Positions 1,342 through 48,849 are shown, counted from the stretch's first letter. The stretch is 64,000 bases of DNA from Cellulomonas sp. KRMCY2 (GCF_000526515.1 NZ_JAGF01000001.1:3720001-3784000), one strand, 5' to 3'. The notes: generated by a model not told the origin, from the letters alone. Program-made: numbers and translations.

Positions 1342-1361
1342 GGTTCTTCATCGGACCTTCA
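1342..1361 (-). promoter_or_regulatory. CopR-type tandem box 1
   Basis: On the minus strand it reads TGAAGGTCC-GA-TGAAGAACC, two 9-mers with an 11-bp period. The form matches the direct-repeat operator of CopR-like OmpR regulators. Its orientation fits the plus-strand genes starting at 1626/1780. Confidence 0.7.
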
Positions 1362-1419
1362 TCGTTCGCGCCCACCAGTCACCGGCGCCGATCTGCGTGC
1401 ACCACGGGCCCATCGCCAT
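1348..1419 (-). pseudogene. 5-prime stub of a SHOCT-type small membrane protein gene
   Basis: From the ATG at 1419 the 23-residue reading MAMGPWCTQIGAGDWW... closely matches the start of the intact SHOCT protein encoded at 39013-39252 (MGLWCTQTGAGGWL). The upstream DNA also matches, including the GGAG site. The reading stops inside CopR box 1, so only the first 20 or so codons survive. This is a remnant of a duplicated gene. Confidence 0.6.
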
Positions 1420-1459
1420 CTCCTGACGTTCGACGAGCATCTGGTGGCGCCCGGGACCA

Positions 1460-1479
1460 TGAAGGTTCGCTGAAGATCC
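1460..1479 (+). promoter_or_regulatory. CopR-type tandem box 2
   Basis: Reads TGAAGGTTC-GC-TGAAGATCC. It sits just upstream of the SHOCT stub (minus strand), in the same order as box and gene at 39.3 kb, and so probably now serves the minus-strand genes ending at window position 1. Confidence 0.75.
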
Positions 1480-1625
1480 GCCCGAGAGGCCCCCCGTCCG
1501 GTCCGGATCGGCCGACCAGCGGCTAGCGTCGGATGGCGCGCCGGATCGTCGGCGCAGGTGCCACGACGTGGCGTCCGCAGGAGCGTGCGGGGATCCGCAG
1601 GCACGTCACCGAGGGAGAGAGCCCG

Positions 1626-1676
1626 ATGACCACCACGAGCTACGACGTGGCCGACGCGACCGGGCCCGGCTCGTGA
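1626..1676 (+). CDS. Possible 16-residue leader ORF coupled to a small membrane ORF
   Basis: An ATG at 1626 follows the strong site GAGGGAGAG and encodes 16 residues (MTTTSYDVADATGPGS). Its TGA overlaps the GTG of the next small ORF as GTGA, the usual sign of translational coupling. Nothing is known about the peptide. It may only serve to load ribosomes onto the next frame. Confidence 0.4.
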   Translation: MTTTSYDVADATGPGS

Positions 1677-1771
1677 AGGCCGCCGCCATCGGCCGACTGA
1701 CCGCCTATGCGGTGGTCCTGGCCATCGCCTTCGCCGTCGCGTACGCGCTCGGCTCCGCCCTCCAGGCCTGA
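1673..1771 (+). CDS. 32-residue single-span membrane peptide upstream of copA
   Basis: Starting with GTG at 1673 (GTGA overlap with the preceding 16-codon ORF), this reading gives VKAAAIGRLTAYAVVLAIAF... followed by AVAYALGSALQA. It is almost entirely one hydrophobic helix with a basic N-terminus. It ends eight bases before the copA start, so it belongs to the same transcript. A longer in-frame start at 1568 exists but has no good ribosome site. Similar short hydrophobic proteins often accompany copper ATPases, as far as I recall; no function can be assigned. Confidence 0.5.
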   Translation: MKAAAIGRLTAYAVVLAIAFAVAYALGSALQA

Positions 1772-1779
1772 GGACCACC

Positions 1780-4104
1780 ATGACCACGACCGACCTGACG
1801 ACGACGGGCAGCGGACCGCTCGACGACACCGTGACCACCATCGAGCTGGCCATCGGCGGGATGACCTGCGCGTCGTGCTCAGCCCGGATCGAGAAGAAGC
1901 TCAACAAGATCGACGGCGTGACCGCAACGGTCAACTTCGCGATGGAGTCGGCCAAGGTGGCATTCACCACCCCGATCACCGTCGACCGCCTCATCTCGGC
2001 CGTCGAGGAGGCCGGGTACACGGCTGCTCCCCCGCCGCCGCCCACGCCTGCCACCTCTGCCGGGGGCACCACGGCGGCGGCCGAGCAGGTCGGCACCCAC
2101 GACGACCCCGTCGACGCCCTGCGCCGACGTCTGGTGATCTCGGCCGTCCTGACGGCTCCGGTCCTGGCGTTGGCGATGATCCCGCCGCTGCAGTTCGACA
2201 ACTGGCAGTGGCTCTCCCTGACGCTTGCCGCGCCCGTCGTCGTCTGGGGTGCGCTGCCGTTCCACCGAGCGGCCTGGAAGAACCTGCGGCACGCCACCGC
2301 GACCATGGACACCTTGATCTCGATGGGCGTCCTCGCGGCCTTCCTGTGGTCCCTGTGGGCCCTGTTCCTCGGGGACGCCGGCATGCCGGGGATGCGGATG
2401 GACTTCACGCTCTTCCCCGAGCCCGGCGCCGGGAGCACGGAGATCTACCTGGAGATCGCCGCGGCCCTCGCCGTGTTCATCCTGTTGGGCCGGTACTTCG
2501 AGGCCCACGCCAAACGGCGCTCCGGAGCAGCCCTGCGGGCGCTTCTCGAGCTGGGCGCCAAAGACGTCGCCGTGCTGCGCGCGACCGCAGCCGGCGACGT
2601 CGAGACCCGGATCCCGATCGACCAGCTCGAGGTCGGCGACCGGTTCGTCGTGCGGCCCGGGGAGAAGATCGCCACCGACGGCGTCGTCGTCGAGGGCTCC
2701 TCGGCGATCGACGCCGCGTTGCTGACCGGTGAGTCCGTACCGGTCGAGGTCGGTCCGGGCGACCCCGTCACCGGTGCGACCGTCAATGCCGGCGGCCGGC
2801 TCGTCGTCGAGGCGACACGCGTCGGCGCCGACACCAAGCTCGCGCAGATCGCGCGGCTCGTGGTGGACGCGCAGTCCGGCAAGGCGGCCGTCCAGCGGCT
2901 CGCTGACCGGCTCTCGGCGGTCTTCGTCCCGATAGTCATCGCGCTGTCGGTGGGCACCCTCGGGTTCTGGCTCGGCCTGACCGGGGACGTCGTCTCGGCG
3001 TTCACCGCTGCGGTCGCGGTGCTGATCATCGCCTGCCCGTGCGCCCTCGGTCTGGCCACCCCGACCGCCCTGCTGGTCGGTACCGGGAGGGGCGCCCAGC
3101 TCGGCATCCTGATCAAGGGTCCTGAGGTCCTCGAGTCGACGCGCAAGGTCGACACGGTCGTCCTGGACAAGACCGGGACCGTCACGACGGGCCGGATGTC
3201 GCTCGTCCATGTCGTGGCGGGCGCCCGAGACGATGCCGATGAGACGCTGCGGGTGGCGGCGACCCTCGAGAACGCGTCGGAGCACCCGATCGCGGCTGCG
3301 ATCGCCGCCGGGGCGACCGACCTCGGCGTGACACTCGGGACTGTGACGGACTTCGCCAACGTCCCGGGACGCGGCGTCCGCGGCACGGTCGAGGGCCATC
3401 GAGTCCTCGCCGGCCGGGCGTCGTGGCTGCAGGACGAGGGACTCGACCTGCCCGTCGAGCTCTCGGCCGCCCTGGACGAGGCCGAGAGCGCTGGTCGCAC
3501 CGCCGTGGTGGTCGGTTGGAACGGCGCGGCACGCGGCGTGCTCGTCGTGTCCGACACGATCAAGACGACGTCGGCCGAGGCGATCGCCCAGCTGCGCAGC
3601 CTGGGCCTGACGCCGATCCTGCTGACTGGTGACAACACCCGTGCGGCCCAGGCGGTCGCCGCTCAGCTCGGCGTCACCGAGGTGATCGCCGAGGTCCTGC
3701 CCGAGGACAAGGTCGCAGTGATCACCCGCCTCCAGGGTGAGGGCCGGGTCGTGGCGATGGTCGGCGACGGCGTCAACGACGCGGCCGCCCTCGCCCAGGC
3801 CGACCTGGGCCTGTCCATGGGCACCGGGACCGACGCGGCGATCGAAGCCTCCGACCTGACCCTCGTCCGCGGTGATCTCCGGGCTGCAGCGGACGCGATC
3901 CGACTGGCCCGGCGCACCTTGGGCACGATCAAGGGCAACCTGTTCTGGGCCCTGGCCTACAACGTCGCGGCGATCCCGCTTGCGGCGTCCGGTCGGCTCA
4001 ACCCCCTGGTCGCCGGTGCGGCAATGGCGTTCTCCAGCGTCTTCGTGGTGTCGAACTCCCTGCGCCTGCGTAGGTTCGCGGCCTGGTCCCAGCACACCTC
4101 CTAG
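1780..4104 (+). CDS. copA: Cu(I)-translocating P1B-type ATPase
   Basis: A 774-residue copper exporter of the inner membrane that pumps cytosolic Cu(I) out at the cost of ATP. An N-terminal HMA domain (about 20-88) carries GMTCASC with C30 and C33. The membrane core has the CPC motif at 419-421. The phosphorylation site DKTGT has D463, followed by the SEHP motif, TGDN and GDGVNDA. The last helix contains FSSVFVVSNSLRL, the Cu(I)-type M8 signature. GAGGA lies seven bases before the ATG. It is preceded by small coupled ORFs and followed by a strong hairpin and the HMA/cupredoxin fusion gene. Boxes 1 and 2 upstream suggest CopR control. Confidence 0.96.
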   Translation: MTTTDLTTTGSGPLDDTVTTIELAIGGMTCASCSARIEKKLNKIDGVTATVNFAMESAKVAFTTPITVDRLISAVEEAGYTAAPPPPPTPATSAGGTTAAAEQVGTHDDPVDALRRRLVISAVLTAPVLALAMIPPLQFDNWQWLSLTLAAPVVVWGALPFHRAAWKNLRHATATMDTLISMGVLAAFLWSLWALFLGDAGMPGMRMDFTLFPEPGAGSTEIYLEIAAALAVFILLGRYFEAHAKRRSGAALRALLELGAKDVAVLRATAAGDVETRIPIDQLEVGDRFVVRPGEKIATDGVVVEGSSAIDAALLTGESVPVEVGPGDPVTGATVNAGGRLVVEATRVGADTKLAQIARLVVDAQSGKAAVQRLADRLSAVFVPIVIALSVGTLGFWLGLTGDVVSAFTAAVAVLIIACPCALGLATPTALLVGTGRGAQLGILIKGPEVLESTRKVDTVVLDKTGTVTTGRMSLVHVVAGARDDADETLRVAATLENASEHPIAAAIAAGATDLGVTLGTVTDFANVPGRGVRGTVEGHRVLAGRASWLQDEGLDLPVELSAALDEAESAGRTAVVVGWNGAARGVLVVSDTIKTTSAEAIAQLRSLGLTPILLTGDNTRAAQAVAAQLGVTEVIAEVLPEDKVAVITRLQGEGRVVAMVGDGVNDAAALAQADLGLSMGTGTDAAIEASDLTLVRGDLRAAADAIRLARRTLGTIKGNLFWALAYNVAAIPLAASGRLNPLVAGAAMAFSSVFVVSNSLRLRRFAAWSQHTS

Positions 4105-5678: not shown

Positions 5679-5698
5679 ACGTCTTGATCCGGTCTTCA
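5679..5698 (-). promoter_or_regulatory. CopR-type tandem box 3
   Basis: Minus strand reads TGAAGACCG-GA-TCAAGACGT, a somewhat weakened copy with the 11-bp period. It lies 45 bp before the membrane protein gene at 5744. Confidence 0.5.
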
Positions 5699-5743
5699 CC
5701 GTGCCGCAGCCACCGCTCGACACCCGCCCACCAGGATGGGCAC

Positions 5744-6157
5744 ATGGAGAGCGAAGCTGACGGCACACATGCGCGCGAGAGTGTCTCGATCGGTACCCCG
5801 GCGGCTCAGCACCGGCCCCGACGGACCGTCTGGACGGTCGTCACGGGTGCGCTCGGCGCCATCGGCGGGGTGGCGCCCCACGTCCTGCACCACGTCGGAC
5901 CCCTGGTCGGGACGGCCCTGGTCGCCGGAGCTGGGGGGACCGCTCTGTTCGGCGTGCTCGGCCTCGCGGCCTCCGTACCGATGCTTCTCAAGCTCCGTAG
6001 GCGATTCGGCAACTGGTGGGCTCCCGGCATCGCGCTGGCCGCGTTCACCGCGATGTTCTTGGTGTCCTCGTTGGTCGTCGGACCACTCATCAGCGGCACC
6101 GACGTCGTGCCTGCATCCGACACCACCCCCGTCCACGACGACTCACACCACGAATGA
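5744..6157 (+). CDS. Small membrane protein of copper loci, function unknown
   Basis: A 137-residue protein with three or four hydrophobic segments (about 30-50, 55-80, 92-115). Notable is a conserved-looking APHVLHHVGPLVGTALVAG stretch near residue 45 and a His-rich C-terminus (HDDSHHE). I have seen proteins of this type beside copper ATPases but no biochemical role is known to me. The start at 5744 is the first ATG that fits the protein; the upstream GGATGGG could serve as ribosome site. It is convergent with lnt, whose stop lies 73 bp downstream. Confidence 0.7.
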   Translation: MESEADGTHARESVSIGTPAAQHRPRRTVWTVVTGALGAIGGVAPHVLHHVGPLVGTALVAGAGGTALFGVLGLAASVPMLLKLRRRFGNWWAPGIALAAFTAMFLVSSLVVGPLISGTDVVPASDTTPVHDDSHHE

Positions 6158-13858: not shown

Positions 13859-13904
13859 ATAACCCAGTTGACCCCTGCATGATGTGGGTCCGACCGAGGA
13901 TCGG

Positions 13905-13924
13905 TGAAGGTTCGATGTGTCCCG
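13905..13924 (+). promoter_or_regulatory. Degenerate CopR-type box (one intact half)
   Basis: Reads TGAAGGTTC-GA-TGTGTCCCG. The first 9-mer is a perfect match, the second is decayed. It lies between the lnt fragment and the CsoR operator and is probably a relic. Confidence 0.35.
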
Positions 13925-13957
13925 CGTCAAGATTCCTGGCAGGGCCCGTTGCTTGCG

Positions 13958-14378
13958 GGTTGTCCCGCGCCGTCGCAGCGCAGGGGTGGTGAGCAGGCCC
14001 GTCTGGTCGCTGGTGAAAGGCCGGTGCGCTCCAGGAACGTCCCGTCCGGACCGATCATGGAACTGACCCCGACGGTGGAGATCTGCACCACCGCCCGGCC
14101 GTGGTCCACGGCACGGAAGCGCGACATGGCCAGCTGTTGGGTGGGTTCCTGGGTCAGGCCGAACGAGGCGTTGTTCGTCGGGATGACGATCAGCTCGCGA
14201 CCCGCCACCACCGAGGCCCGGATGAGCTGGTCGTAGGCGACCTCGAAGCAGATGGCGGTGGTGATCGGCACGGCGCGGCCCAGACGCACGATCGGTACGT
14301 CCAGCAGCCCGATCCCGGTGCCCGCCGCCGCGCCGAGCTCGCGATCGGTGCGTGGGTCGATGTCCGAGGCGCTCTCGG
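13958..14378 (-). pseudogene. Fragment of a second apolipoprotein N-acyltransferase gene
   Basis: The minus strand reads ESASDIDPRTDRELGAA, jumps to GTGIGLLDVPIVRLGRAV and continues through ICFEVAYDQLIR and IPTNNASFGLTQE up to LERTG. It then shifts frame to FTSDQTGLLTTPALRRRG. All pieces match lnt at 6231-7844, but the first half, a block holding the catalytic Lys, and a block near the C-terminus are deleted. It abuts the stop codon of the GH65 gene. It is a decayed paralog and not functional. Confidence 0.85.
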
Positions 14379-20968: not shown

Positions 20969-21010
20969 TAAGCATCCGTGGGCACGGAATGGGTTCCCAT
21001 TTCGGCTCGA

Positions 21011-32886: not shown

Positions 32887-32906
32887 TCAAGATTCGCTGA
32901 AGGAGC
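32887..32906 (+). promoter_or_regulatory. CopR-type tandem box 12
   Basis: Reads TCAAGATTC-GC-TGAAGGAGC, in the usual orientation for the minus-strand Lgt-like gene. Confidence 0.65.
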
Positions 32907-34726: not shown

Positions 34727-35045
34727 GACCCACCCCCAGCGGGCCACCGCGCCCGGTGGTCGGAGCCAGCACGCCGCGCCGCTCCAGCAGCGTGCGGAGC
34801 TTCTTGCGTGGCAGGCGTCCGGAGCTGAAGTACTCACCGTCGACCAGGACCAGGGGATTCATCGCCGGCCGGTGCCACGCCACGAGGTCGGCGCCCTCGG
34901 CGGACTCGAGCTCCACGACCCGCACGTCGAGGTCGACCTCGGCGGCCAGGTCACGCAGAGCCGCCTGCGCGTCGTCGCAGAAGTGGCACGCCGGGGCATG
35001 GACCACCGTCACCACCACGGGTGACCCTGGGGTCGGTTCACGCAC
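34716..35045 (-). CDS. Small thioredoxin/glutaredoxin-fold protein (CHFC)
   Basis: A 109-residue cytosolic protein with the redox motif CHFC near residue 20 (VVHAPACHFCDDAQ) and a glutaredoxin-like end (NPLVLVDGEYFSSGRL). The GTG at 35045 is chosen because GGAG lies six bases upstream; an in-frame TTG lies at 35057. It probably feeds electrons to the CcdA-like protein encoded next. CopR box 13 lies 75 bp upstream. Confidence 0.75.
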   Translation of the reverse strand: MREPTPGSPVVVTVVHAPACHFCDDAQAALRDLAAEVDLDVRVVELESAEGADLVAWHRPAMNPLVLVDGEYFSSGRLPRKKLRTLLERRGVLAPTTGRGGPLGVGRGH

Positions 35046-35120
35046 GGGGGTCTCCAAACCGGTTGGCGATCGGACGTCTCCAGGTTGACGCCACCGTGCT
35101 TGCTCTTGGTCGACGTTGGA

Positions 35121-35140
35121 TCAATGTTTGATGAAGGTGA
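35121..35140 (+). promoter_or_regulatory. CopR-type tandem box 13
   Basis: Reads TCAATGTTT-GA-TGAAGGTGA. It lies between the redox operon (minus) and the second two-component system (plus), 48 bp from the regulator start, so it might serve either or both. Confidence 0.6.
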
Positions 35141-35919: not shown

Positions 35920-37049
35920 GCCACCGGCGGCGCACCGCCGCCCCGGGGATCGCCAGCCGGCTCCTGGCCGCGCTGGCGCTCGTCGTCGTCGCCGGCGGGC
36001 TGACCGCCTGGCTCGTGGCCGGCGCGATCGGGCCGGCCATCTTCCACCAGCACATGGTCCGGGCTGGGCTCGAAGAGGACACCGCAGCGGTGTTGCACGC
36101 CGAGGAGGCCTTCCGCTCGGCCGCCGCCCTGTCCTTGACGGTCGCGCTCGCCGCAGCCGTCGTTGCCTCCCTGGCGGTGAGCCTGTTCCTCACCAAACGC
36201 ATCGCCGGCTCACTCGGCGCGCTGTCGGCCGCGGTCGCCCGGATCGCTGGTGGACGGTTCGACTCCCGAGTCGCCAGCCCCCGCATGGGACCCGAGTTCG
36301 ACCAGCTCTCGCACGCGTTCAACGACATGGCAGCTCGCCTCGAGGAGAGCCAGGCGCTGCGCCGCCGGCTCCTGGCCGACGTCGCCCACGAGGTCCGTAC
36401 CCCTGTGGCGACCCTCAACGCCTACCTCGAGGGGCTCGAGGACGGCGTCGAGACGCTGACGCCCCAGACTGTCACCGTGCTCCGCACCCAAGGCGCTCGG
36501 CTGACGCGACTGGCCGACGACCTGGCAGCCGTCACGCGCGTCGAGAGCGGCGAGCTCACCCTGCACCGGGAACCCACCTCGCCCGCGGCCCTGCTCGACC
36601 AGGCACGTGCCGCGGCCGAGGAACGCTTCGCTGCCGCGGGCATCGATCTGGCGATGGAGGTCGAGCCCGGGCTTCCCGCGGTCCTGGTCGACCCCGACCG
36701 CATGGGCCAGGTGCTCGGCAACCTCGTCGACAACGCCCTGCGCCACACACCGCGCGTGGGGACGGTCGAGCTCACCGCCCACCTGACCGAGGACCGTCGC
36801 GTGCGTCTGGCGGTCGTGGACAACGGTGAAGGGATCGACCCGCAGCACCTCGCGCACGTGTTCGAGCGCTTCTACCGCGTCGACACCGCCCGCGACCGCG
36901 GCCACGGCGGCTCAGGCATCGGCCTGGCCATCGTCCGAGCCCTGGTCGAGGCGCACGGCGGAACCGTCAGCGCCCACAGCGACGGCCTCGGTACCGGCTC
37001 GACCTTCGAGATCCTCCTCGAACCCGCCACAGCGGCCGATCGCCCCTGA
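35916..37049 (+). CDS. Sensor histidine kinase (CopS-like, copy 2)
   Basis: A 377-residue kinase with two helices (about 14-38 and 72-93) around a short outer loop with FHQHMVRAG, a HAMP domain, the HisKA box with H158 ([10 protein letters not shown]), and the ATPase motifs [21 protein letters not shown] and [10 protein letters not shown]. The loop motif FHxH(L/M)xRA is shared with the first kinase. It is coupled to its regulator gene by ATGA. Confidence 0.92.
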
Positions 37050-37078: not shown

Positions 37079-37109
37079 TCAAGATTCCATGAAGGTTCGC
37101 TGACCTGAG
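37079..37109 (+). promoter_or_regulatory. CopR-type box 14 with a third partial repeat
   Basis: TCAAGATTC-CA-TGAAGGTTC at 37079-37098, followed in phase by GC and TGACCTGAG. It lies about 50-60 bp before the M23 peptidase start. It is the one strong box whose orientation is opposite to the rest relative to its downstream gene. Confidence 0.65.
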
Positions 37110-37156: not shown

Positions 37157-38497
37157 ATGCGATCACGGTCAGTTCGACTGAGCGTCGCGGGCGCCCTCGC
37201 CATAGCAGCGCTCGCGTCCAGCCTCGTCGCGCCCGCCGCCGCCGAAGAGTCCGACGACAGACGGGCCCGCGCGAAGTCCGAGCAGGGCGCAGTTGCGTCG
37301 TCGATGGAAGAGCTCAACGAGCTGCTCGAGGACACCGACGCCGAGCTCGTCGCCGTCTACGCGGATCTGCAGACCCTCACCGCCCAGCTGCCCGGCGCGC
37401 AGGCCGAGCTGAGCACCGCGGAGGCCGTGCTGGACGGGCTCGAGCGCGAGGCGGCGATGATCGGGGAGCGGCTCACCGTGACCCGGGCCGAGGGCGCCAC
37501 GATCACCGCGGCGATCCTCGTCGACACCCAGCGCGCCGAACAGAGCCGATCGGCGATCGGACAGCTCGCACGGGACGCCTACAAGGGCTCCCTGAGTGCC
37601 TCCGCGATGTCGGCAGTCCTCGACTCCCGGAATGCCACCGACTTTGTCCAACGATCGGCGATCTCCTCTGCCGTCCTGCAGGCGCAGACCCAGGCCCTTC
37701 GCGACCTCGAGCAGATCAACGGGCTCAACGGCAACCGACGTGCCCGGCTGACAGCAGTAGAGACCGAGATCGCCGAGCTCAAGAGCGAGGCCGATGCCAA
37801 CGTCGCCGAGGCCGAGTCCGCACGCATCACGGCCCAGCGACGTCGGGACGAGGTCGCCACACTCGTGGCGCGGCAGCAGGCGAACGCTGACGTCATCGAG
37901 GCACGGCGCGCCGATCAACTCGAGCGCAAGACCGCCTACGAAGCGCAGCAAGCGGCGCTCGCCAGCGAGCTCGCCGCCATCGTGCGGGCACAGGAGGACG
38001 ACCGCGCGCGACGGGCTGCCGCCGCGGCTCAGGCCGCTGTCGTGGCCGGCGAGCCCGTACCGGCTCCCCCGCCGCCGGCTCAGCAACCCGGCCGCGGCGT
38101 CCTGGCCTACCCGAGCCCCATGAACCCGCCCGTGATCACCTCGCCCTACGGATACCGGATCCACCCGATCTACGGGTACCGCAAGCTGCACGCCGGGACC
38201 GACTTCCGCGCCTACTGCGGCACGCCGATCATCGCGTCGGCCGCCGGGACCGTGCAGTGGGCCGCGTCCGTCGGCGGATTCGGAAACCAGGTGATGCTGA
38301 ACCATGGCCTGCAGAACGGGAGCTCGCTGTTGACCAGCTACAACCACCTGTCGTCCTTCGCCGTCACGACCGGGCAGACAGTCACCCAGGGACAGGTCGT
38401 CGGCTACTCGGGCACCACGGGCACCTCAACGGCATGCCACCTGCACTTCGAGGTCTACGTGAACGGCGTGACCGTGGACCCCGAGACCTTGCTGTAG
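37157..38497 (+). CDS. Secreted M23-family peptidase with long coiled coil
   Basis: A 446-residue exported protein of the EnvC/NlpD layout. A signal peptide (about 1-30, ending ...APAAAEE) leads into a long coiled coil (about 40-290) and a Pro-rich linker (PAPPPPAQQP). The C-terminal LytM domain (about 305-446) has HAGTDFRAYCGTP and HLHFEVYVNG, so zinc ligands look intact and it may cut peptidoglycan cross-links. The start is uncertain because the ribosome site is weak; a TTG at 37112 is in frame. It lies behind CopR box 14. Confidence 0.85.
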   Translation: MRSRSVRLSVAGALAIAALASSLVAPAAAEESDDRRARAKSEQGAVASSMEELNELLEDTDAELVAVYADLQTLTAQLPGAQAELSTAEAVLDGLEREAAMIGERLTVTRAEGATITAAILVDTQRAEQSRSAIGQLARDAYKGSLSASAMSAVLDSRNATDFVQRSAISSAVLQAQTQALRDLEQINGLNGNRRARLTAVETEIAELKSEADANVAEAESARITAQRRRDEVATLVARQQANADVIEARRADQLERKTAYEAQQAALASELAAIVRAQEDDRARRAAAAAQAAVVAGEPVPAPPPPAQQPGRGVLAYPSPMNPPVITSPYGYRIHPIYGYRKLHAGTDFRAYCGTPIIASAAGTVQWAASVGGFGNQVMLNHGLQNGSSLLTSYNHLSSFAVTTGQTVTQGQVVGYSGTTGTSTACHLHFEVYVNGVTVDPETLL

Positions 38498-38731: not shown

Positions 38732-39013
38732 TCAGACGTGGATGCGCCCCTCCGGGCCGGCTGCCTGGACGTCGCGGTCGGCCGACGAAGGCGTCTGGAT
38801 CGAATTCTGCGCACAGTGTGCGCTGTGCTGGTGCTCCCCGGAGGCGCCCGCTCCGTGGTTGCGGTTCATCATGAACATCATGCCGACCATCATCAGAGGG
38901 CACGCGAGCAGAAGGGCCCATGGCAGGGCCTCCTGGAAGCCGACCCCGAAGAGAAGTAGGACGACGAGGATGCCCGCTCCTCCAATGACCATGTGCTTGA
39001 GATGACCCTTCAT
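38732..39013 (-). CDS. Small Met/His-rich membrane protein (DUF2933-like)
   Basis: A 93-residue protein with two close hydrophobic segments (about 9-27 and 30-48) and a Met-rich exit (LMMVGMMFMMNRNHG), followed by GEHQHSAHC. The ATG at 39013 shares one base with the SHOCT stop (TGATG), so the two are coupled. Similar in style to the protein at 21072-21356. Metal binding is inferred from composition. Confidence 0.65.
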   Translation of the reverse strand: MKGHLKHMVIGGAGILVVLLLFGVGFQEALPWALLLACPLMMVGMMFMMNRNHGAGASGEHQHSAHCAQNSIQTPSSADRDVQAAGPEGRIHV

Positions 39014-39252
39014 CAGCTTCCTTTCGTCTCGACCGGCGCCAACCGGTCGAGCTCGCGACGGATCAGACGGTAGGTCTCCGGATCGATCTCCCCAGATGCG
39101 AGCCGCGACTCGAGGACGGCATAGGCGTCGGGCGCCGGCTGCGCGGGGAACAGTCGTCCCACCCCCCAGACGATGAGCGCCACGACCGCGACCCAGAGGA
39201 CGACCATGGACAGCCAGCCACCTGCCCCCGTCTGCGTGCACCACAGACCCAT
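39013..39252 (-). CDS. SHOCT-domain small membrane protein
   Basis: A 79-residue protein starting MGLWCTQTGAGGWLS, then one membrane helix (about 12-34) and a SHOCT tail (YAVLESRLASGEIDPETYRLI). The ATG at 39252 is taken because AGGAG lies six bases upstream; another ATG two codons earlier is too close. Box 15 lies 86 bp upstream. A stub of a sister gene with the same leader DNA sits at 1348-1419. Confidence 0.75.
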   Translation of the reverse strand: MGLWCTQTGAGGWLSMVVLWVAVVALIVWGVGRLFPAQPAPDAYAVLESRLASGEIDPETYRLIRRELDRLAPVETKGS

Positions 39253-39338
39253 CGCCATCTCCTGCCGTTCGACCAGGCACCCGGTGGCACCTGTGCACCA
39301 CCCTGGCCACGGACCATCAAGAAGCGAGCGGCGATCCA

Positions 39339-39358
39339 TGAAGACTCGCTGAAGATCC
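39339..39358 (+). promoter_or_regulatory. CopR-type tandem box 15
   Basis: Reads TGAAGACTC-GC-TGAAGATCC, in the usual orientation for the minus-strand SHOCT gene. Its surroundings match those of box 2. Confidence 0.75.
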
Positions 39359-39586: not shown

Positions 39587-40997
39587 GGTGACGTCCCCTG
39601 GGGTGGTGTAGTTCTCGATCTTGTTCGTCGTGGTGACCGCGACGGAGAAGGCCATCGTGCGATGGTCGGTGAGACCGGACTAGGGAACTCACGGAAGGAC
39701 ATCGCACGATGGCCATGGACCAGTCTGCCCTGCTCGACCTGCTGACCGCATTGAAGGACACCGAGGTCACCGACCGGGTCCGGACCGCGACCGAGCACCT
39801 GTATCAAGAGCTGATCGACGCCGAGGCGACCGCGGTGATCGGCGCCGGCCCCTGGCAGCGCACCGCCGAGCGGACCGCCCTGCGCAACGGGTCGCGGGAC
39901 CGGGTCCTGACGACCACGGCCGGGGACTTGGAGCTGCGGATCCCTAAGCTGCGCACCGGGTCGTTCTTCCCCTCGTTGCTCGAGCGGCGTCGCCGGGTCG
40001 ACCAGGCGCTGTTCGCGGTGGTGATGGAGGCCTACCTGCACGGGGTCTCCACCCGCAAGGTCGATGACCTGGTCAAGGCTCTGGGGGCCGACACCGGGAT
40101 CTCCAAGAGTGAGGTCAGCCGGATCTGCGCCGGCCTGGACGAGGAGGTCGGTGCGTTCCGCGACCGGTCGCTGGACCAGATCGCGTTCCCCTACGTCTAC
40201 CTGGACGCGACCTACTGCAAGGCCAGGGTCGGGCGTCGGGTGGTGTCCCAGGCCGTGGTCATCGCCACCGGGGTCCGCGCCGACGGTCACCGTGAGGTCC
40301 TGGGGTTCGACGTCGGGGACTCCGAGAACGGCGCCTTCTGGACCAGCTTCCTGCGGTCCCTCAAGGCCCGGGGCCTGGGCGGGGTGCAGCTGGTCATCTC
40401 CGACGCCCATGAGGGGTTGAAGACCGCGATCGCCTCGGTGTTGCTCGGCTCGTCCTGGCAACGCTGCCGGGTCCACTTCACCCGCAACGTGCTCGACGCG
40501 GTGTCCAGGACCAACGCCGAGATGGTCGCCGCGGCGATCCGCACGATCTTCGCCCAGCCCGACGACGCCCACGTCGGCGAGCAGTTCGAGGTCATCGCCA
40601 CGATGCTGGGCCGCTCCCACCCCAAGGTCGCCGCGATGCTCACCGACGCCCGCGAGGACCTGCTCGCGTTCACCGGCTTCCCCGCCAGCCACTGGAAGAA
40701 GATCTGGTCGACCAACCCCCTGGAACGACTGAACAAGGAAGTCAAACGCCGCACCGACGTCGTGGGGGTCTTCCCCAACCCCGCCGCCCTGCTGCGCCTG
40801 GCCGGCGCCGTCCTGGTCGAAGCCCACGACGAATGGGCCGCCACCGACCGCCGCTACCTGTCCGAGCACTCCATGGCCCAGCTCGCCACCATGACCCTGA
40901 CCGCGACGGAGGTGGACGCCCCCGAACTCCTCACGGCATGATCAACACACTGACCCGCACGGTGTCGAGCAACTCCACCACTCAGCGGGACGTCACC
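39587..40997 (+). mobile_element. IS256-family insertion sequence with 8-bp target duplication
   Basis: A 1411-bp element. The left end GGTGACGTCCC-CTGGGGTGG and the complement of the right end GGTGACGTCCC-GCTGAGTGG form imperfect terminal inverted repeats of about 30 bp. The flanks at 39579-39586 and 40998-41005 are both GTCGACCT, a perfect 8-bp duplication as expected for this family, which points to a recent insertion. The right duplication is also the beginning of CopR box 16. Confidence 0.92.
39709..40941 (+). CDS. IS256-family transposase
   Basis: A 410-residue DDE transposase of the mutator group. Typical features: LRNGSRDRVLTT, LRIPKLRTGSFFP, the first Asp in YVYLDATYCKARV, the second in VISDAHEGLKTAI, the CxxH part in CRVHFTRNVLD, and the C-terminal Glu in WSTNPLERLNKEVKRRTDVVG. 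It looks intact. It fills most of the element at 39587-40997. Confidence 0.95.
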   Translation: MAMDQSALLDLLTALKDTEVTDRVRTATEHLYQELIDAEATAVIGAGPWQRTAERTALRNGSRDRVLTTTAGDLELRIPKLRTGSFFPSLLERRRRVDQALFAVVMEAYLHGVSTRKVDDLVKALGADTGISKSEVSRICAGLDEEVGAFRDRSLDQIAFPYVYLDATYCKARVGRRVVSQAVVIATGVRADGHREVLGFDVGDSENGAFWTSFLRSLKARGLGGVQLVISDAHEGLKTAIASVLLGSSWQRCRVHFTRNVLDAVSRTNAEMVAAAIRTIFAQPDDAHVGEQFEVIATMLGRSHPKVAAMLTDAREDLLAFTGFPASHWKKIWSTNPLERLNKEVKRRTDVVGVFPNPAALLRLAGAVLVEAHDEWAATDRRYLSEHSMAQLATMTLTATEVDAPELLTA

Positions 40998-40999: not shown

Positions 41000-41019
41000 C
41001 GACCTTCAGCGAACCTTCA
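41000..41019 (-). promoter_or_regulatory. CopR-type tandem box 16
   Basis: Minus strand reads TGAAGGTTC-GC-TGAAGGTCG, 105 bp upstream of the ABC ATPase. Its outer six bases are part of the IS256 target duplication, so the box was rebuilt on this side. Confidence 0.8.
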
Positions 41020-41124
41020 TCTGATCGCTACTGATCGTGTATCCCACCGCGGACATCGTTGAGTCGACGCGTCCGTCAGTTCCATCGATCGGCGGAGACG
41101 TCACCTGACCGGGTGAGGGCGATC

Positions 41125-41817
41125 ATGGCCGAAGCCACACATCCCACCGCCAAGAGACCGGGACCGCGATCGGCGCCGGGTTCTCAGGCCGTGCTCACCG
41201 CCGTCGGGCTGGAGAAGTCCTACCACCGCGGTCCGTGGCCGCTGAGGCGGTCCGTGCGGGTGCTCCTGGGCGCCGAGCTCACCCTCTACCCGGGCGAGGT
41301 CGTGGGTCTCGTGGGCGAGAACGGCTCGGGCAAGAGCACGCTGATGAAGATCCTCGTCGGCGCATTGACCGCGGACGGCGGCTCAGTGACGCGCCCGGGG
41401 CAGATCGGCTACTGCCCTCAGGAGCCGCTGGTCTACCCGCGGCTGACCTGCGACGAGCACTTCGAGATCTTCGGCAGGGCATACCGGATGCCCCACGTCG
41501 CCGCGCACCGCAACCGCCAGGACCTCTACCAGTCTCTCGGCTTCGCTCGGTACGCCGGCACGCGCGCCGACCGGCTCTCCGGCGGAACACTGTCGAAGCT
41601 CAACCTCGGACTCGCCCTCCTGGCCGACCCTGGCGTGCTGCTCCTGGACGAGCCGTACGCCGGGTTCGACTGGGACACCTACCTGAAGTTCTGGGAACTG
41701 GTCGAGCAGCGCCGGGCAGTGGGCAAGAGCGTCTTGATCATCAGCCATTTCGTCGTCGACGAGCACCGATTCGACCGGATCGTCGACCTTCGAGACGGAC
41801 GGACGTGGCCGAGATGA
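41125..41817 (+). CDS. ABC transporter ATP-binding protein
   Basis: A 230-residue cytosolic ATPase. Walker A is GENGSGKST, the Q-loop region is GYCPQEPLVYP, the signature is LSGGTLSKLNL, Walker B is VLLLDEPYAGFDW, and the switch His lies in IISHFVVDEH. The start at 41125 has GAGGG upstream. It is coupled by ATGA to a membrane protein gene and is thus one half of an exporter under CopR box 16. Confidence 0.9.
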   Translation: MAEATHPTAKRPGPRSAPGSQAVLTAVGLEKSYHRGPWPLRRSVRVLLGAELTLYPGEVVGLVGENGSGKSTLMKILVGALTADGGSVTRPGQIGYCPQEPLVYPRLTCDEHFEIFGRAYRMPHVAAHRNRQDLYQSLGFARYAGTRADRLSGGTLSKLNLGLALLADPGVLLLDEPYAGFDWDTYLKFWELVEQRRAVGKSVLIISHFVVDEHRFDRIVDLRDGRTWPR

Positions 41818-43313
41818 CGACCATGGTCTTGGTCCACCGGTTCCTCGACGACTACGCGCGCAACAGGGCCAACCTCCTGTTCCTCGTCCTGGTGCCGATC
41901 GTCTTCGTGGTCGTCGCGGCCGACTCGATGGCCGAGGCAGCGCGACTCCTCGGCGGCGCCGGTGGTGGGGCGCCGATCGAAACCATCACGGCAGGATGGG
42001 CAGCGGGCTTCCTGGCCGCGATCGCCATGTACTTCCAGGTCCGCGCCGCCAAGCTCACCGACCGGCGCTTGGTCCTGTCGGGACTCCCGCGCCTCACGCT
42101 CGTGACCGCCCGGATGATCGCAGGTGGGCTGCTGGCGGCGGTTGCATGCACCGCCGCTCTGCTCGCCCTTGCGGCCCGGAACGGTATCCAGCAGCCAGGC
42201 CGTGTGGTCCTCGGGACGCTCATGTTCGCCGTCGTCTACCTGGCCTTCGGAGCGCTGGTCGGGGCCACGGTCCCGAATGCCGTGAACGGCACAGTCCTGC
42301 TGATGTTCATCTGGATCATCGATGTGTTCTTCGGTCCCACGCTCAGCGGCTCGGATGCCCTGGTGACCCGGTTTCTCCCCACCCACTTCATCTCCCTGTG
42401 GACAGTCAACCTGCCCGCGGGGCACGCGGGGGCCAGCGAGCTCGTCTGGTCCCTCACCTGGACGGTCACCGCAACGGCCACTGCTTTCGTCGTCGTGCTG
42501 CGGACCAGCGCGGTGGGACGCAGATGGAGCGCCGCCCGCCCTGGCTCTGCCGGGACCCAGCTGCGGACCGGGCTGCGGATGGCGTGGCGAACCTGGCGGC
42601 GGACACCTGTGCTGTGGGCACTGCTGGCTGTTGTCCCCACGGTGTTCATCTGGCTGTCAGATGCGATCACCCCGCATGGCAGCACCCCGGTCACGCTTCG
42701 CGAGGGCGGTGCGCCGCTCACCGAGATGCTCGACCCCGCCCACATGCATGCCGCGACGATGGCCCCCGTCGCCGTGGCCTCGCTGGCGGCGCTTGCGGGA
42801 GTCTTCATCGCGCTGGACGCACGCGAGGCGGACCAACGGCTCGCCCTGGCGGGCCAACGCCGCTGGGTCGTCCTCGCCACGCGACTGAGCACGGTGTTCG
42901 CGGCGGCCGGCATCGCCACGGCGGCGTCTGTCATCGTGACCTCCACCGTCTTCGATGCCCACCAATGGGGGGTGTACGTCGCTGCAATCACGCTCGTCGC
43001 CCTGACGTACGCACTGGTCGGAGTGCTTCTCGGTCCGCTGTTCGGGCGAGTCAGCGGCACCTTCATGGCCTTCCTCATCCCGTTCATCGACCTGGGCATC
43101 GGCCAGAGCCCGATGCTCCAGGCACAACCGGAGAGCTGGGCCCGATACCTCCCGAGCTACGGCCCCACCCGCATGGTGATCGACGGCGCACTCACAGCGA
43201 CCTTCGACGAGGCCGCCTCCCTGGTGGTCGCACTCGCATGGGTCACCGGTCTGACCCTGGCGGTCGTCATCCTGTTCCGACGGGAGCAGGCTGCGACGGT
43301 CCAGGCCGGCTAG
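41814..43313 (+). CDS. ABC-2-type exporter membrane protein
   Basis: A 499-residue membrane protein with about twelve helices in two similar sets (residues about 15-235 and 265-495), so it looks like two ABC-2 permease halves in one chain. Segments like NAVNGTVLLMFIWIIDVFFGP and FGRVSGTFMAFLIPFIDLGIG correspond between the halves. It pairs with the ATPase before it. The substrate is unknown; bacteriocin/antibiotic or lipid export is typical for such systems. Confidence 0.85.
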   Translation: MTTMVLVHRFLDDYARNRANLLFLVLVPIVFVVVAADSMAEAARLLGGAGGGAPIETITAGWAAGFLAAIAMYFQVRAAKLTDRRLVLSGLPRLTLVTARMIAGGLLAAVACTAALLALAARNGIQQPGRVVLGTLMFAVVYLAFGALVGATVPNAVNGTVLLMFIWIIDVFFGPTLSGSDALVTRFLPTHFISLWTVNLPAGHAGASELVWSLTWTVTATATAFVVVLRTSAVGRRWSAARPGSAGTQLRTGLRMAWRTWRRTPVLWALLAVVPTVFIWLSDAITPHGSTPVTLREGGAPLTEMLDPAHMHAATMAPVAVASLAALAGVFIALDAREADQRLALAGQRRWVVLATRLSTVFAAAGIATAASVIVTSTVFDAHQWGVYVAAITLVALTYALVGVLLGPLFGRVSGTFMAFLIPFIDLGIGQSPMLQAQPESWARYLPSYGPTRMVIDGALTATFDEAASLVVALAWVTGLTLAVVILFRREQAATVQAG

Positions 43314-46089: not shown

Positions 46090-46903
46090 ACCCGGAGCCG
46101 TCGACCCGCTCGAGCCGCCGCACCGGGCCGACGCACCGACCTCCCCGGGCGCCCCGCTCCTGACGGTGCGGGGGCTGGCGAAGAGCTTCGGCGCCAACCA
46201 GGTGCTCCGTTCGGTCGACCTGTCGATCGGACGCGGCCAGGTGCTGGCCCTGATCGGCCCGTCCGGCTCCGGCAAGACGACGGTCCTGCGCTGCCTGAAC
46301 GGCCTGGAGGTCGCCGACGGCGGAACGATCGCGGTCGGCGCCGACCTCGCGCTCGACTTCGCCCGTCCGCCGTCCAGACGCGAGCTTGCCGCCTTGCGCG
46401 ACCGCTCGGCGATGGTCTTCCAGCACTACAACCTCTTCCCGCACAAGACGGTGCTGCAGAACGTCGTCGAGGGACCGGTCGTGGTCCAGCGGCGCCCCGC
46501 CGCCGAGGTCGACGCCGAGGCCAGGGCCCTGCTCGATCGGGTCGGCCTGACCGACAAGTCGGACAGCTACCCGTTCGAGCTGTCGGGCGGTCAGCAGCAA
46601 CGCGTCGGCATCGTGCGCGCGCTCGCGCTCAAGCCCCAGCTGCTGCTCTTCGACGAGCCGACGTCGGCCCTGGACCCCGAGCTCGTCGGCGACGTCCTGG
46701 GCCTGATCAAGGAGCTCGCGCTCGAGGGCTGGACGATGGTGATCGTCACCCACGAGCTCCAGTTCGCCCGGGAGGTCGCGCACGAGGTCGCCTTCGTCGA
46801 CGGCGGGACGATCGTCGAGCGTGGTGAGCCGGCCCAGCTGCTGCGTGACCCGCAGCACGAGCGCACCCGGCAGTTCCTGCACCGGCTGCTCCACCAGTTC
46901 TAG
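46076..46903 (+). CDS. Amino-acid ABC transporter ATP-binding protein
   Basis: A 275-residue ATPase of the GlnQ/TcyC type. A Pro-rich start of about 25 residues precedes GPSGSGKTT (Walker A), QHYNLFPHKTVLQN, LSGGQQQRVGI (signature) and LLLFDEPTSALDPE (Walker B). It completes the importer with the two genes before it. Confidence 0.94.
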   Translation: MSPTEPGAVDPLEPPHRADAPTSPGAPLLTVRGLAKSFGANQVLRSVDLSIGRGQVLALIGPSGSGKTTVLRCLNGLEVADGGTIAVGADLALDFARPPSRRELAALRDRSAMVFQHYNLFPHKTVLQNVVEGPVVVQRRPAAEVDAEARALLDRVGLTDKSDSYPFELSGGQQQRVGIVRALALKPQLLLFDEPTSALDPELVGDVLGLIKELALEGWTMVIVTHELQFAREVAHEVAFVDGGTIVERGEPAQLLRDPQHERTRQFLHRLLHQF

Positions 46904-46953
46904 CCGGCAGATGCGCGACCAGGGCACTCCGTGCGTCTGCACCTCGACGGTCA

Positions 46954-48459
46954 TCAGCCGACAGCGATCGTCCCCATCATCCCGAGGTCCTCGTGGTCGA
47001 GGATGTGGCAGTGATAGACGGTCCGGCCGCTGAACCGGTCGAACGCGATGCGCACCGTCACCTCCCCGTCCGCCGGGACGTCCACGACATCGCGGCGGTC
47101 GACCACCGTGACAGGCCCGTCCGCTGTGCGTACCAGCTGCATCGGCCACACGTGCAGGTGGAACGGGTGACTCATCGGTGAGGTGTTGCGGATGGTCCAC
47201 TCCTCGACGTCGCCGGCGCGAACCTGCTGGTCGATGCGCTCGGGATCGAAGGAACGCCCGTCGATCGTGAACCGCATCCCGCCGTCGCCCATGCCCATGC
47301 CCATGCCCGTCGCCAGCTCGAGCACGCGAGAACGCGCAACGGACGCGCTGCGCAGGTCCCGCCCGGCCGGACGACGCCCGGGGCCGGGTGCGGCCGGCGG
47401 AACCGCACCTGCCCCGCTCGTCGTCCCGGTGGCCCGGACGATGGCGAGGGTCGTGGCGCCCCGCGAGGACGGCGGACGTCCGCCCATCATGCCCATGCCA
47501 CGCCCGCTGCCGCGGTCGTAGGCCAGTGTCTCCAGCTGCGTCGTGCCGGCAGGCAGGGTCACGGTCAGATCCGCGCGGTTCCCTGGCGCCAGGACGATCT
47601 CGGTGACGTCATGCGGCGTGGCGAGAGGACGGCCGTCGAACCCGTTGAGGCTCATCGGGTGGCCGTCCAGGCTCAGCCGCAGGTAGCGCGAGGTGCAGGC
47701 GTTGAGGACGCGCCAATGCTCTGTCGCGCCCGTCCGGCCCTCGAGCACCGGACGAGCTTGCCCGTTGACGAGCACGAGGTCTCCCTCGCGCCCGGCCATG
47801 CGATCCATCGGGGAGACCACCGCGACGCTCCCGTCCGCGGCCAGGCTGGTGTCCGAGATGATCAGCAGCCGTTCGCCCGCTGTCGCGGAGGCGTCGCGGT
47901 CCACGACGATCGCCCCGTAGAGGCCGGCGAAGACCTGGCCGGCGACCATACCGTGGTGGTGCGGGTGGTACCAGAACAGCCCGGTGGGATGGTCGGCCGG
48001 CAGCAGGATGTCGTAGGCGTGCGCCTCGCCTGGGTCGACCCGGACGAAGGGGTTGTCCCCCGCGCCCTGCGGTGACACCTCCAGACCGTGCGTGTGGAGG
48101 TTCGTCGGTTCGTCGAGGTCGTTGACCAACCGCACCCGCAACCGGTCACCCGGGGCCAGGAGCAGCGTCGGACCCGGCACGCTGCCGTTGAACGCCAGCA
48201 CGTGGGCGGTGCGGCCCGCGAGGCTCACATCGGCCGGAGCGGCGCGGAGATCGACCTGGAGCACACCGTCAACGGCGCGAAGCACGTCGGGCTCGGTGAG
48301 CGCAGCGCCCTGCCCCGGTGCCGGGTTCCGGACCGTCGAGCCGGGCCCGAACGGCGGCCACCCGTTGCCGCCCAGGCCGACGAGCCCGACACCTGCGCTC
48401 GCTGCACCCAGCAGCCCCAGCTCGAGGGCGTGGCGACGGCTGATCGCCTCCGAGCTCAC
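46954..48459 (-). CDS. Multicopper oxidase
   Basis: A 501-residue exported oxidase, probably oxidising Cu(I) to the less toxic Cu(II). The N-terminus has a signal with SRRHALELGLLG, which may be Tat-type. All four copper motifs are there: LHTHGL, FWYHPHHHG, HPFHLHVW and HCHILDHEDLGMM. Met-rich inserts (GMGMMGGRPP, MGMGMGDGGM) recall the Cu(I)-binding loops of CueO. The GTG at 48459 overlaps the SHOCT stop as GTGA. It would be under CopR box 17. Confidence 0.93.
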   Translation of the reverse strand: MSSEAISRRHALELGLLGAASAGVGLVGLGGNGWPPFGPGSTVRNPAPGQGAALTEPDVLRAVDGVLQVDLRAAPADVSLAGRTAHVLAFNGSVPGPTLLLAPGDRLRVRLVNDLDEPTNLHTHGLEVSPQGAGDNPFVRVDPGEAHAYDILLPADHPTGLFWYHPHHHGMVAGQVFAGLYGAIVVDRDASATAGERLLIISDTSLAADGSVAVVSPMDRMAGREGDLVLVNGQARPVLEGRTGATEHWRVLNACTSRYLRLSLDGHPMSLNGFDGRPLATPHDVTEIVLAPGNRADLTVTLPAGTTQLETLAYDRGSGRGMGMMGGRPPSSRGATTLAIVRATGTTSGAGAVPPAAPGPGRRPAGRDLRSASVARSRVLELATGMGMGMGDGGMRFTIDGRSFDPERIDQQVRAGDVEEWTIRNTSPMSHPFHLHVWPMQLVRTADGPVTVVDRRDVVDVPADGEVTVRIAFDRFSGRTVYHCHILDHEDLGMMGTIAVG

Positions 48460-48728
48460 TGACCGTCCAGGTTGCCCAACCGCTCCTGGAACTCGGTGGA
48501 GTCGATCTCCCCTCGCGCATAGCGCTCCTCCAGGATCGCCCGCGCCCGCGAGACGCCACCCGCCGGTGGACCGGACGTCGTCCCACCGTGGCCCGAGCCT
48601 CCACCGGACGATGTGCCACCGCCCGAAGCGAGACGCACCAGCACGACCACCAGGACCACCACACCCGCGAGGACGAGCAACCACAGCAGCCACATCCCAG
48701 GGCCCATCCCGTATCCGTTCCACATCAT
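48456..48728 (-). CDS. SHOCT-domain small membrane protein
   Basis: A 90-residue protein starting MMWNGYGMGPGMW, with one membrane helix (about 12-35), a Gly/Ser-rich linker and a SHOCT tail (RARAILEERYARGEIDSTEFQERL). The ATG at 48728 is preferred since AGAGGA lies nine bases upstream. It is coupled to the multicopper oxidase gene by GTGA. It is the third SHOCT protein of the island. Confidence 0.75.
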   Translation of the reverse strand: MMWNGYGMGPGMWLLWLLVLAGVVVLVVVLVRLASGGGTSSGGGSGHGGTTSGPPAGGVSRARAILEERYARGEIDSTEFQERLGNLDGQ

Positions 48729-48829
48729 GTCAACCATTCCTCTCGACTCGTCGACAGGACCGGCCCGCTGAGGGCCGCGCCGATACCCCATGGTGCGCTC
48801 CGGACCTGAAGGCCACCCGATCGGGGACA

Positions 48830-48849
48830 TGAAGGAACGCTGAAGGTCC
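48830..48849 (+). promoter_or_regulatory. CopR-type tandem box 17
   Basis: Reads TGAAGGAAC-GC-TGAAGGTCC, 101 bp upstream of the SHOCT/multicopper oxidase pair, in the usual orientation. It is the rightmost box seen. Confidence 0.7.

Follow-up and report, generated by a model that had tools for sequence, protein, structure and literature searches.

Tandem-repeat boxes of a copper island in Cellulomonas sp. KRMCY2 as probable operators of a CopRS-type two-component system

In the genome of Cellulomonas sp. KRMCY2 (4.495 Mb) a 20-bp tandem repeat, here called a box, recurs within a 48-kb copper island, which raises the question of which regulator reads these boxes and which genes it controls. 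The window analyzed is the whole stretch of 64,000 nucleotides at positions 3,720,001-3,784,000 of contig 1 (NZ_JAGF01000001.1; genome G000); positions are counted from its first letter and boxes are named by their first coordinate. An initial annotation had joined about fifteen transcription units into a copper regulon through an operator resembling that of Corynebacterium CopR. This observation largely holds and its interpretation is supported in part. The repeats are quite likely operators of a CopRS-type two-component system and would together make up a CopR regulon with many operators, located in a copper island of mobile type. As about 13 gene groups of the island have a common switch sequence and promoter layout, a single copper-sensing regulator probably switches on pumps, copper-binding proteins and cell-envelope enzymes together.

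All 15 main repeats proposed at the outset are present in the sequence. They served to build a 20-position matrix, which was used for all bit scores. Fourteen of them reach at least 22.8 bits, and at least 17.1 bits when left out of the matrix, whereas repeat 5679 is weak with 13.3 bits and falls to 7.0 when left out. The three positions put forward as weaker copies fared differently: the one at 23670 (7.5 bits) was out of register with the real site, which occupies 23654-23673 of the minus strand, scores 16.4 bits and has a -10-like element, and the one at 13905 scores 7.0 bits (16.2 in register 13894) with a -10 in neither register; the third, 21447, is taken up below. As background, 40 stretches of 20 kb (800 kb) from the remainder of the genome were scanned and whole-genome pattern searches were added. 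Five of these stretches are adjacent to the window or to its neighbours, and two were positioned on matches to TGAAGNTTCNNTGAAGNTTC outside the window, so that the background count is raised, not lowered, by them. Sixteen matrix matches of at least 15 bits were located in positions 1-49000 (14 boxes of at least 18 bits), compared with one in positions 49001-64000 and one in the 800 kb. With up to three mismatches, TGAAGNTTCNNTGAAGNTTC was found 14 times in the genome, 12 of them inside the window (backwards control, 2). TSAABN6TSAAG, a pattern fitted to the sites, gave 24 genome matches, namely 15 in the island, one at 3,672,771 and eight elsewhere (control, 2).

Since the matrix and these patterns were derived from the sites themselves, the motif published for C. 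glutamicum CopR provides the fair test. Unaltered and with up to four mismatches, it matched four times in the first 49 kb and not at all in the 800 kb; with up to six mismatches the counts were 15 and 16, the former made up of 12 listed sites, 21447 and two others. The published motif thus finds the same region as the matrix, in agreement with a single operator family, and the operator given in the passages drawn from PMC3140484, TGAAGATTTgaTGAAGATTT, is similar to the island repeats, as had been proposed. The boxes are intergenic, again as proposed: all 14 strong window sites lie between genes, as do 104 of the 106 boxes of at least 20 bits in the window, one further stretch of the same genome (L146) and 41 related loci, with genes called by a simple codon-composition caller of our own. 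The family is not spread through the genome but bound to the island plus one locus. The box of that locus (3,672,771; L146:12772-12791) scores 24.1 bits, is accompanied by a -10 of its own and stands 85 bp upstream of the gene of a small secreted protein, which is followed by a third CopR-type response regulator, RR3, and its kinase HK3. Divergent from this box is a gene that by eye resembles a CoA-disulfide reductase.

Read in the direction of the gene, the operator has the form GAACCTTCA-nn-GAACCTTCA. Downstream of 63 aligned boxes an A and a T four bases apart are conserved, and the resulting -10-like element nAnnnT, which is new here, begins 33-34 bp past most boxes. The minimal -10 of actinobacteria is TAnnnT. 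Among the 17 sites of this genome (the 15 listed, 23654 and 3,672,771) the element occurs in 14, with A and T at offsets 35/39 in eight and 34/38 in six. In other loci it is carried by 56 of 86 non-redundant boxes of at least 20 bits; the two offsets hold 20 and 37 boxes, whereas the remaining 93 single offsets average 1.96 of 86, with a maximum of 6. This fixed spacing sets the polarity and the start site for each box. It speaks for the weak boxes 5679 and 23654, which both have a -10, and it marks 1342, 1460 and 37079, which have none, as operators without a matching promoter. The -10 of box 5679 ends seven bases before the ATG of 5744-6157, whose start is possibly leaderless. Of eight weak or shifted registers checked later, seven lack a -10 and only 21447 has one; as this is one of eight registers tried afterwards, chance could account for it, and 21447 (14.5 bits) is a possible functional weak site for 21072-21356, which encodes a small His-rich membrane protein on the minus strand.

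Four boxes in related loci (L179:7654, L180:12293, L183:8497 and L187:8295) stand ahead of four-helix DUF326-type copper proteins and have no -10 at +34/35. All four show TAGCGT near +45, roughly a helical turn beyond that position (judged by eye, with a protein scan for L180 only), which may represent a second spacing class. On pLEW279b a second CopR-type box (L046:6273-6292), additional to the single site reported in C. glutamicum, has TAGGGT at the expected spacing and precedes a four-helix copper-binding protein.

The boxes were also analyzed for their conservation before orthologous genes, which were placed by tblastn in the 41 related loci. A gene was counted as boxed if a box of at least 18 bits and of the right polarity lies within 260 bp upstream. 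L064, which is 97-99% identical to parts of L174 and L175, was dropped from the ortholog counts, leaving 40 loci, and from the -10 spacing counts; L053, on the same contig as L184, was dropped from the ortholog, regulator, intergenic, tree and spacing counts, and the near-duplicates L048 and L049 (up to 96%) were both kept. Orthologues of the first genes behind window boxes, among which DUF305, a second gene, is counted, are boxed in 40 of 80 cases. For the other window genes this holds for 6 of 192 (multicopper oxidase 4, DUF2933-like 1, DUF3105 1), the multicopper oxidase and the DUF2933-like gene being second genes of boxed operons in the window. RR2 orthologues (32, one boxed at 18 bits or more) belong to neither group. 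Conservation is highest for the SHOCT-like gene 39013-39252 (SHOCT2; 6/6), HMA (3/3) and Lgt1 (5/6), followed by the YgaP-like gene (3/5), the glutaredoxin-like gene (7/12), SHOCT1 (2/4), SHOCT3 (1/2) and DUF305 (10/21). Orthologues of 5744-6157 have a box of at least 14 bits in 6 of 10 cases and of at least 18 bits in 1 of 9 without L064.

No boxed orthologue at 18 bits or more was found for CopA1 (0/13), CopA2 (0/19), CsoR (0/11), RR1 (0/7) or the M23 peptidase (0/5); at 14 bits or more one CopA2 orthologue (L186, 16.6 bits) and one CsoR orthologue (L044, 14.5 bits) have a facing box. CopA1 was rejected as a target, as box 1342 is 418 bp away and without a -10. The M23 peptidase, which the initial annotation had listed among the box genes, was dropped as well, as box 37079 faces the other way and has no -10; this box is left without an assigned target. 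CopA1, CopA2 and CsoR stand outside the regulon and probably obey CsoR. The CsoR palindrome in its 18-bp form gave no match; the form TACCCC-N5-GGGGTA with two mismatches gave a count no higher than chance, including one match at 20954-20970 beside the -10 of CopA3. A CsoR-like palindrome, ATACCCCAACGGGGTAT, is also located near the start region of HMA-CopA3 in L064 (11944-11960). This suggests that the HMA-CopA3 promoter may be under joint control of CopR and CsoR.

The window holds two two-component systems of a response regulator (RR) and a histidine kinase (HK), RR1-HK1 and RR2-HK2. RR2 is an OmpR-family regulator adjoining a HAMP-HisKA-HATPase kinase (Pfam). In a survey of 108 regulator genes from the window, one stretch of the same genome and the related loci, with the RR2 of the window counted, a box of at least 18 bits just upstream and facing away was found for 17 of 27 regulators at least 60% identical to RR2, at 34-97 bp, for 2 of 15 at 50-60% identity and for none of 66 below 50%. 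Boxes facing the regulator gene itself number one, zero and two in these classes. The CopR of pLEW279b, used in place of the C. glutamicum sequence (97% nucleotide similarity between the cop regions, PMC3140484), belongs to the 50-60% class; its box lies 59 bp upstream, which agrees with the operator position of -59 to -78 published for C. glutamicum (PMC3140484). In a tree of 47 rows the 24 box-linked regulators, four of which are labelled from weak boxes of 14.0-16.5 bits (L185, L059, L065, L187) and one from a box facing the regulator (L060), need 4 label changes compared with 16 in shuffles. A clade of 31 rows (support 99/96) contains all 24 together with RR2 and pLEW279b CopR, and RR1 and RR3 fall outside it. 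HK2 aligns with the CopS of pLEW279b through its short sensor loop, including an FHxH motif that is also present in HK1 and absent from HK3.

Site density follows the same pattern, with 1.08 sites per 10 kb in 13 CopR-like loci and 0.08 in 67 loci whose regulators are more distant; 28 of the latter with a G+C content of at least 60% gave one match in 497 kb. Among 58 relatives, matches occur in 10 of 23 genomes with an RR2-like gene versus 2 of 35 without at 24 bits or more (Fisher 8e-4), 11/23 versus 5/35 at 22 bits or more and 11/23 versus 7/35 at 20 bits or more, a comparison that is supporting only, as it covers matches within two mismatches and its E cut was chosen by eye. The profile of proteobacterial CusR/CopR/SilR (TIGR01387) gives 157.4 bits for RR2 and 175.1 for RR1, below its cut-off of 279.2, and the best NCBIfam profile of both is that of MtrA, the cell-wall response regulator of actinobacteria, which is also an OmpR-family protein (RR2 227.3, RR1 229 bits; curated equivalog cut-off 300).

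The most serious alternative, which is possible though the less likely one, is that RR1 binds the boxes, alone or together with RR2, with the two systems acting in cascade or competing for the same operators. RR1 has a GD(D/E)..VDVH stretch in its DNA-binding domain in common with RR2 and CopR, its kinase carries the same FHxH loop, and its operon has a weak box of its own (23654) with a -10. However, RR1 lies outside the clade of box-linked regulators, there is no box directly upstream of its own gene, and none of its seven orthologues has a facing box of at least 18 bits upstream.

With RR2 as the regulator, the following mechanism is proposed. HK2 would sense copper outside the membrane by means of its short FHxH loop and phosphorylate RR2, and the two 9-bp repeats may be occupied by two RR2 molecules in head-to-tail arrangement. 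The operator would span about -47 to -66 and bring RNA polymerase to promoters where no -35 is conserved, and transcription is predicted to start about 46 bp downstream of the boxes. Thirteen island promoters would fire together (5679, 21011, 21590, 22708, 23654, 26710, 28173, 29213, 32887, 35121, 39339, 41000 and 48830), with 21447 perhaps as a fourteenth and 3,672,771 as the one outside the island. The induced set would comprise a copper ATPase, a multicopper oxidase, metallothionein-like and DUF305 copper binders, small membrane proteins and a disulfide relay, and further two Lgt-like enzymes, VanY, YibE/F, an ABC exporter and, in a presumed cascade, RR1-HK1. Activation by RR2 is predicted, and the role of copper as the signal is suggested by gene content and kinship with CopRS.

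Several observations weigh against this reading. Ten of the 27 close RR2 relatives have no box of at least 18 bits facing away just upstream. Identity to pLEW279b CopR amounts to 53% for RR1, 53% for RR2 and 52% for RR3, and to 49-50% for three control regulators; with values this close, overall identity cannot choose among RR1, RR2 and RR3, which are separated by the tree. Between the listed sites and the published C. glutamicum motif there are 4-7 mismatches in 18 positions. The -10 offsets were picked by inspecting the pooled data, and three strong window boxes and 30 of the 86 boxes elsewhere have no -10. The cited passages on C. glutamicum do not mention a -10 at a fixed distance, and the Corynebacterium operator on pLEW279b has no -10 at this distance. 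Lgt1, the redox relay, VanY, the ABC exporter, Lgt2 and YibE/F, all named as targets initially, each have a box and a -10 in the right polarity, and Lgt1 and the glutaredoxin-like gene are also backed by their orthologues; conservation is weak for VanY (1/4) and the ABC ATPase (1/3) and absent for YibE/F (0/2) and Lgt2 (0/3) within 260 bp. The Lgt2 orthologue of L174 has a box with a -10, 412 bp upstream of its called start. Finally, C. glutamicum has one operator serving two divergent operons, and a single genomic binding place of CopR is reported in the passages drawn from PMC3140484 and PMC3353115, compared with about 13 promoters plus one outside locus here. The single operator is regarded as a property of C. 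glutamicum and not of the CopR family, and the island is therefore counted as a variant.

It is unlikely that the boxes work as drawn and respond to silver, thiols or envelope damage, the copper genes being only part of the response. Lgt1, VanY, the glutaredoxin relay and YibE/F are indeed envelope or redox proteins. However, copper genes are numerous among the targets (copper-type ATPase, multicopper oxidase, DUF305, HMA, and four-helix copper proteins in relatives), and a C. glutamicum CopRS mutant is described as sensitive to copper but not to other metals (PMC3140484, PMC3353115).

Still less probable is the view that rearrangement of a mobile island has carried many boxes along as unused copies. 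Box 1460 heads a duplicate of the 39339 promoter that has decayed: the two align with two gaps, the -10 is lost, and the gene behind 1460 (MGPWCTQIGAGDWW...) stops after 21 codons. Boxes 1342 and 37079 also lack a -10, with 1342 probably not a working promoter, and transposase genes are located in and beside the island. The other boxes, however, keep polarity and -10 spacing (14 of 17) in flanks that are unrelated by eye, and other genomes likewise have boxes ahead of orthologues. The reading of the boxes as random or compositional repeats, such as a GC-rich genome may contain, can be dismissed, even though 18 of the 43 window matches to TGAAG-like words (up to two mismatches) are expected by chance and a box-like sequence (63666-63685, minus strand, 19.6 bits, without a -10) lies inside a called gene beyond the island, probably by chance, as this reading is already refuted by the matrix counts in island and background, the fixed -10 spacing and the conservation of boxes.

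Table 1. Boxes and gene groups of the island, with strand, matrix score and -10-like element of each box.
Feature	Position	Strand	Bits	-10-like	Remarks
Box 1342	1342-1361	-	strong	none	faces CopA1 (1780-4104)
Box 1460	1460-1479	+	strong		heads decayed copy of 39339 promoter
Box 5679	5679-5698	-	13.3 (weak)	5732-5737	reads toward + strand
Small hypothetical protein	5744-6157	+			target of box 5679; no Pfam match
HMA-CopA3 operon	17833-20930	-			small HMA-like 20610-20930 (just below gathering score), CopA3 17833-20613; Pfam
Box 21011	21011-21030	+	27.0	20971-20976	reads toward - strand
Box 21447	21447-21466	+	14.5 (weak)	21407-21412	reads toward 21072-21356 (-)
Box 21590	21590-21609	-	23.1	21644-21649	reads toward VanY
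VanY-type D-alanyl-D-alanine carboxypeptidase	21648-22637	+			PF02557; start 21648 or 21771
Box 22708	22708-22727	-	23.4	22761-22766	reads toward 22828-23372
YgaP-like transmembrane protein and His-rich small membrane protein	22828-23372	+			PF11127
Box 23654	23654-23673	-	16.4 (weak)	23707-23712	reads toward RR1-HK1 operon
RR1-HK1 operon	23753-26563	+			RR1 24738-25421, HK1 25418-26563 (Pfam)
Box 26710	26710-26729	-	26.9	26764-26769	reads toward YibE/F
YibE/F membrane protein	26943-28154	+			PF07907
Box 28173	28173-28192	-	29.2	28227-28232	
43-amino-acid Cys-rich peptide	28298-28429	+			three CC pairs; first gene behind box 28173; no Pfam match
DUF305 lipoprotein, CopM-type domain	28498-29121	+			PF03713; second gene behind box 28173
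Box 29213	29213-29232	-	24.0	29266-29271	
Lgt1, divergent prolipoprotein diacylglyceryl transferase family protein	29339-30118	+			PF01790; GRLGC...GD motif
Lgt2, second divergent Lgt-family protein	31577-32752	-			Pfam; N-terminal extension; box 32887 upstream
Box 32887	32887-32906	+	26.3	32847-32852	reads toward Lgt2
Redox relay operon	33090-35045	-			glutaredoxin/thioredoxin-like 34716-35045 (CxxC), CcdA-like 33713-34747, redoxin 33090-33716
Box 35121	35121-35140	+	22.8	35082-35087	47 bp before RR2 start; reads toward redox relay
RR2, CopR-type OmpR-family response regulator	35188-35919	+			Pfam and tree; candidate regulator of whole set
HK2, CopS-type histidine kinase	35916-37049	+			Pfam; short extracytoplasmic loop with FHxH motif
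Box 37079	37079-37098	+	29.7	none	partial third repeat; points away from M23
M23 peptidase	37157-38497				not a supported box target
SHOCT-like and DUF2933-like genes	38732-39252	-			SHOCT-like 39013-39252, DUF2933-like 38732-39013; by resemblance; no Pfam/NCBIfam match
Box 39339	39339-39358	+	27.5	39300-39305	
Box 41000	41000-41019	-	29.0	41054-41059	
ABC-2 type exporter	41125-43313	+			Pfam; ATPase from 41125 or 41191 to 41817, membrane protein 41805-43313
SHOCT-multicopper oxidase operon	46954-48728	-			small SHOCT 48456-48728 (just below cut-off), multicopper oxidase 46954-48459; Pfam
Box 48830	48830-48849	+	23.6	48790-48795	

The gene groups are listed in Table 1. CopA3 is a fusion of cupredoxin, P-type ATPase and YHS domains (Pfam), and the RR1-HK1 operon begins with a small SHOCT-like gene (by resemblance) and a gene for a secreted protein without a Pfam match. 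The 43-amino-acid peptide is a candidate copper metallothionein; a similar CC-rich peptide of 35 amino acids lies 94 bp behind a box in L178. Both Lgt1 and Lgt2 score below the NCBIfam lgt cut-offs, so that lipid transfer by them is uncertain. They carry GRLGC at the place of GRIGN in the housekeeping Lgt of this genome (3,979,692), and Lgt1 has SGDGTYG in place of NQELFG. The Lgt1 form is common to three related island proteins (L177, L044, L175), and the L045 protein has the usual form. In the redox relay, thioredoxin and glutaredoxin profile matches of the first protein stay below the cut-offs, and the CcdA-like membrane protein, which has no Pfam or NCBIfam match, was named by analogy with the annotation of L044.

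The segment 1342-1480 is a rearrangement remnant in which a second box overlaps the end of the decayed duplicate. A mutator-family transposase gene (39709-40941) lies inside the island; beyond it, at 52493-53649, an integrase-core gene is accompanied by a small HTH gene. At 13927-14271 a fragment of a carbon-nitrogen hydrolase (Lnt-like) stands beside box-like sequences (13894-13946) that have no -10.

TSAAGNTN4TSAAG, a looser pattern that is noisy in distant genomes (11 matches and 12 backwards in G032), occurs 9 times in this genome, 14 in G011, 10 in G017, 9 in G014 and 12 in G030, with no backwards match in any of the five, and 0-7 times in other members of the genus. Sets with several operators thus also occur in further genomes of the group. 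CopR-like systems with boxes are also present on plasmids of Cellulomonas, Rhodococcus, Kocuria and Corynebacterium, and eight of nine plasmid loci examined carry at least one box of at least 18 bits. It appears that copper islands move and take their operators along.

A motif first noticed by eye has thus become a map of 13 promoters with predicted starts and one candidate regulator, whose sequence logic is found again in other genera, and the spacing from operator to -10 offers a rule by which CopR regulons may be recognized in further actinobacterial genomes. Genes that have been little studied (Lgt1, YibE/F, the 43-amino-acid peptide, the SHOCT-like and DUF2933-like genes) are placed under predicted copper control, which would connect lipoprotein processing and wall enzymes of Gram-positive bacteria with copper stress. 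On a broader view, which has about even chances, the CopR of Cellulomonadaceae-type actinobacteria would have become a multi-promoter activator of a copper-triggered envelope defence with an RR1 cascade, island regulons of this kind would be common in this group, and the C. glutamicum system would be a reduced form. If true, copper export would be coupled with lipoprotein lipidation through a divergent Lgt branch, disulfide repair, a D-alanine carboxypeptidase, an ABC exporter and a metallothionein-like mini-protein, all driven by one operator with a -10 at fixed spacing.

No report of a many-operator CopR regulon was found among the openly licensed PMC papers listed, judged by title or start of abstract, and TGAAGATTT as a query gave no relevant title among the matches listed. 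Among the closest known systems is CopRS of C. glutamicum (cg3285-cg3284), which like the island system consists of an OmpR-type regulator and a HAMP kinase and uses a direct repeat of 9-2-9 bp, with TGAAGATTT as the consensus compared with TGAAGRTTC in the island. In the parts of its description cited here, the operator lies just upstream of copR between divergent operons, as box 35121 does between RR2 and the redox relay, and the targets include a multicopper oxidase, a copper ATPase and a thioredoxin-like protein, as in the island. The regulon predicted here is wider than this classical one, as had been claimed, since it extends beyond a single operator. In Synechocystis the copper-binding CopM, for which DUF305 is named, is under the copper two-component system CopMRS according to the passage cited (PMC4335983); this system belongs to a different phylum and is likened to DUF305/CopM under CopRS in the island by gene content. 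An Lgt gene adjoins a multicopper oxidase gene in Pseudarthrobacter sp. AG30 (PMC6256500), so that such a gene neighbourhood is already known. The gene content of the island is largely matched by p110066 of Cellulomonas sp. C5510 (L044), which has in common with it M23, YibE/F, Lgt, a regulator-kinase pair, glutaredoxin-CcdA-redoxin and DUF305, and also an M15 peptidase (VanY-like), P-type ATPases, Lnt, a multicopper oxidase and a metal-sensitive (CsoR-type) regulator. CopR boxes are located there between copR and Lgt and before the oxidase; p110066 is plasmid-borne and carries five boxes of at least 18 bits in 40.7 kb, compared with the 14 in window positions 1-49000.

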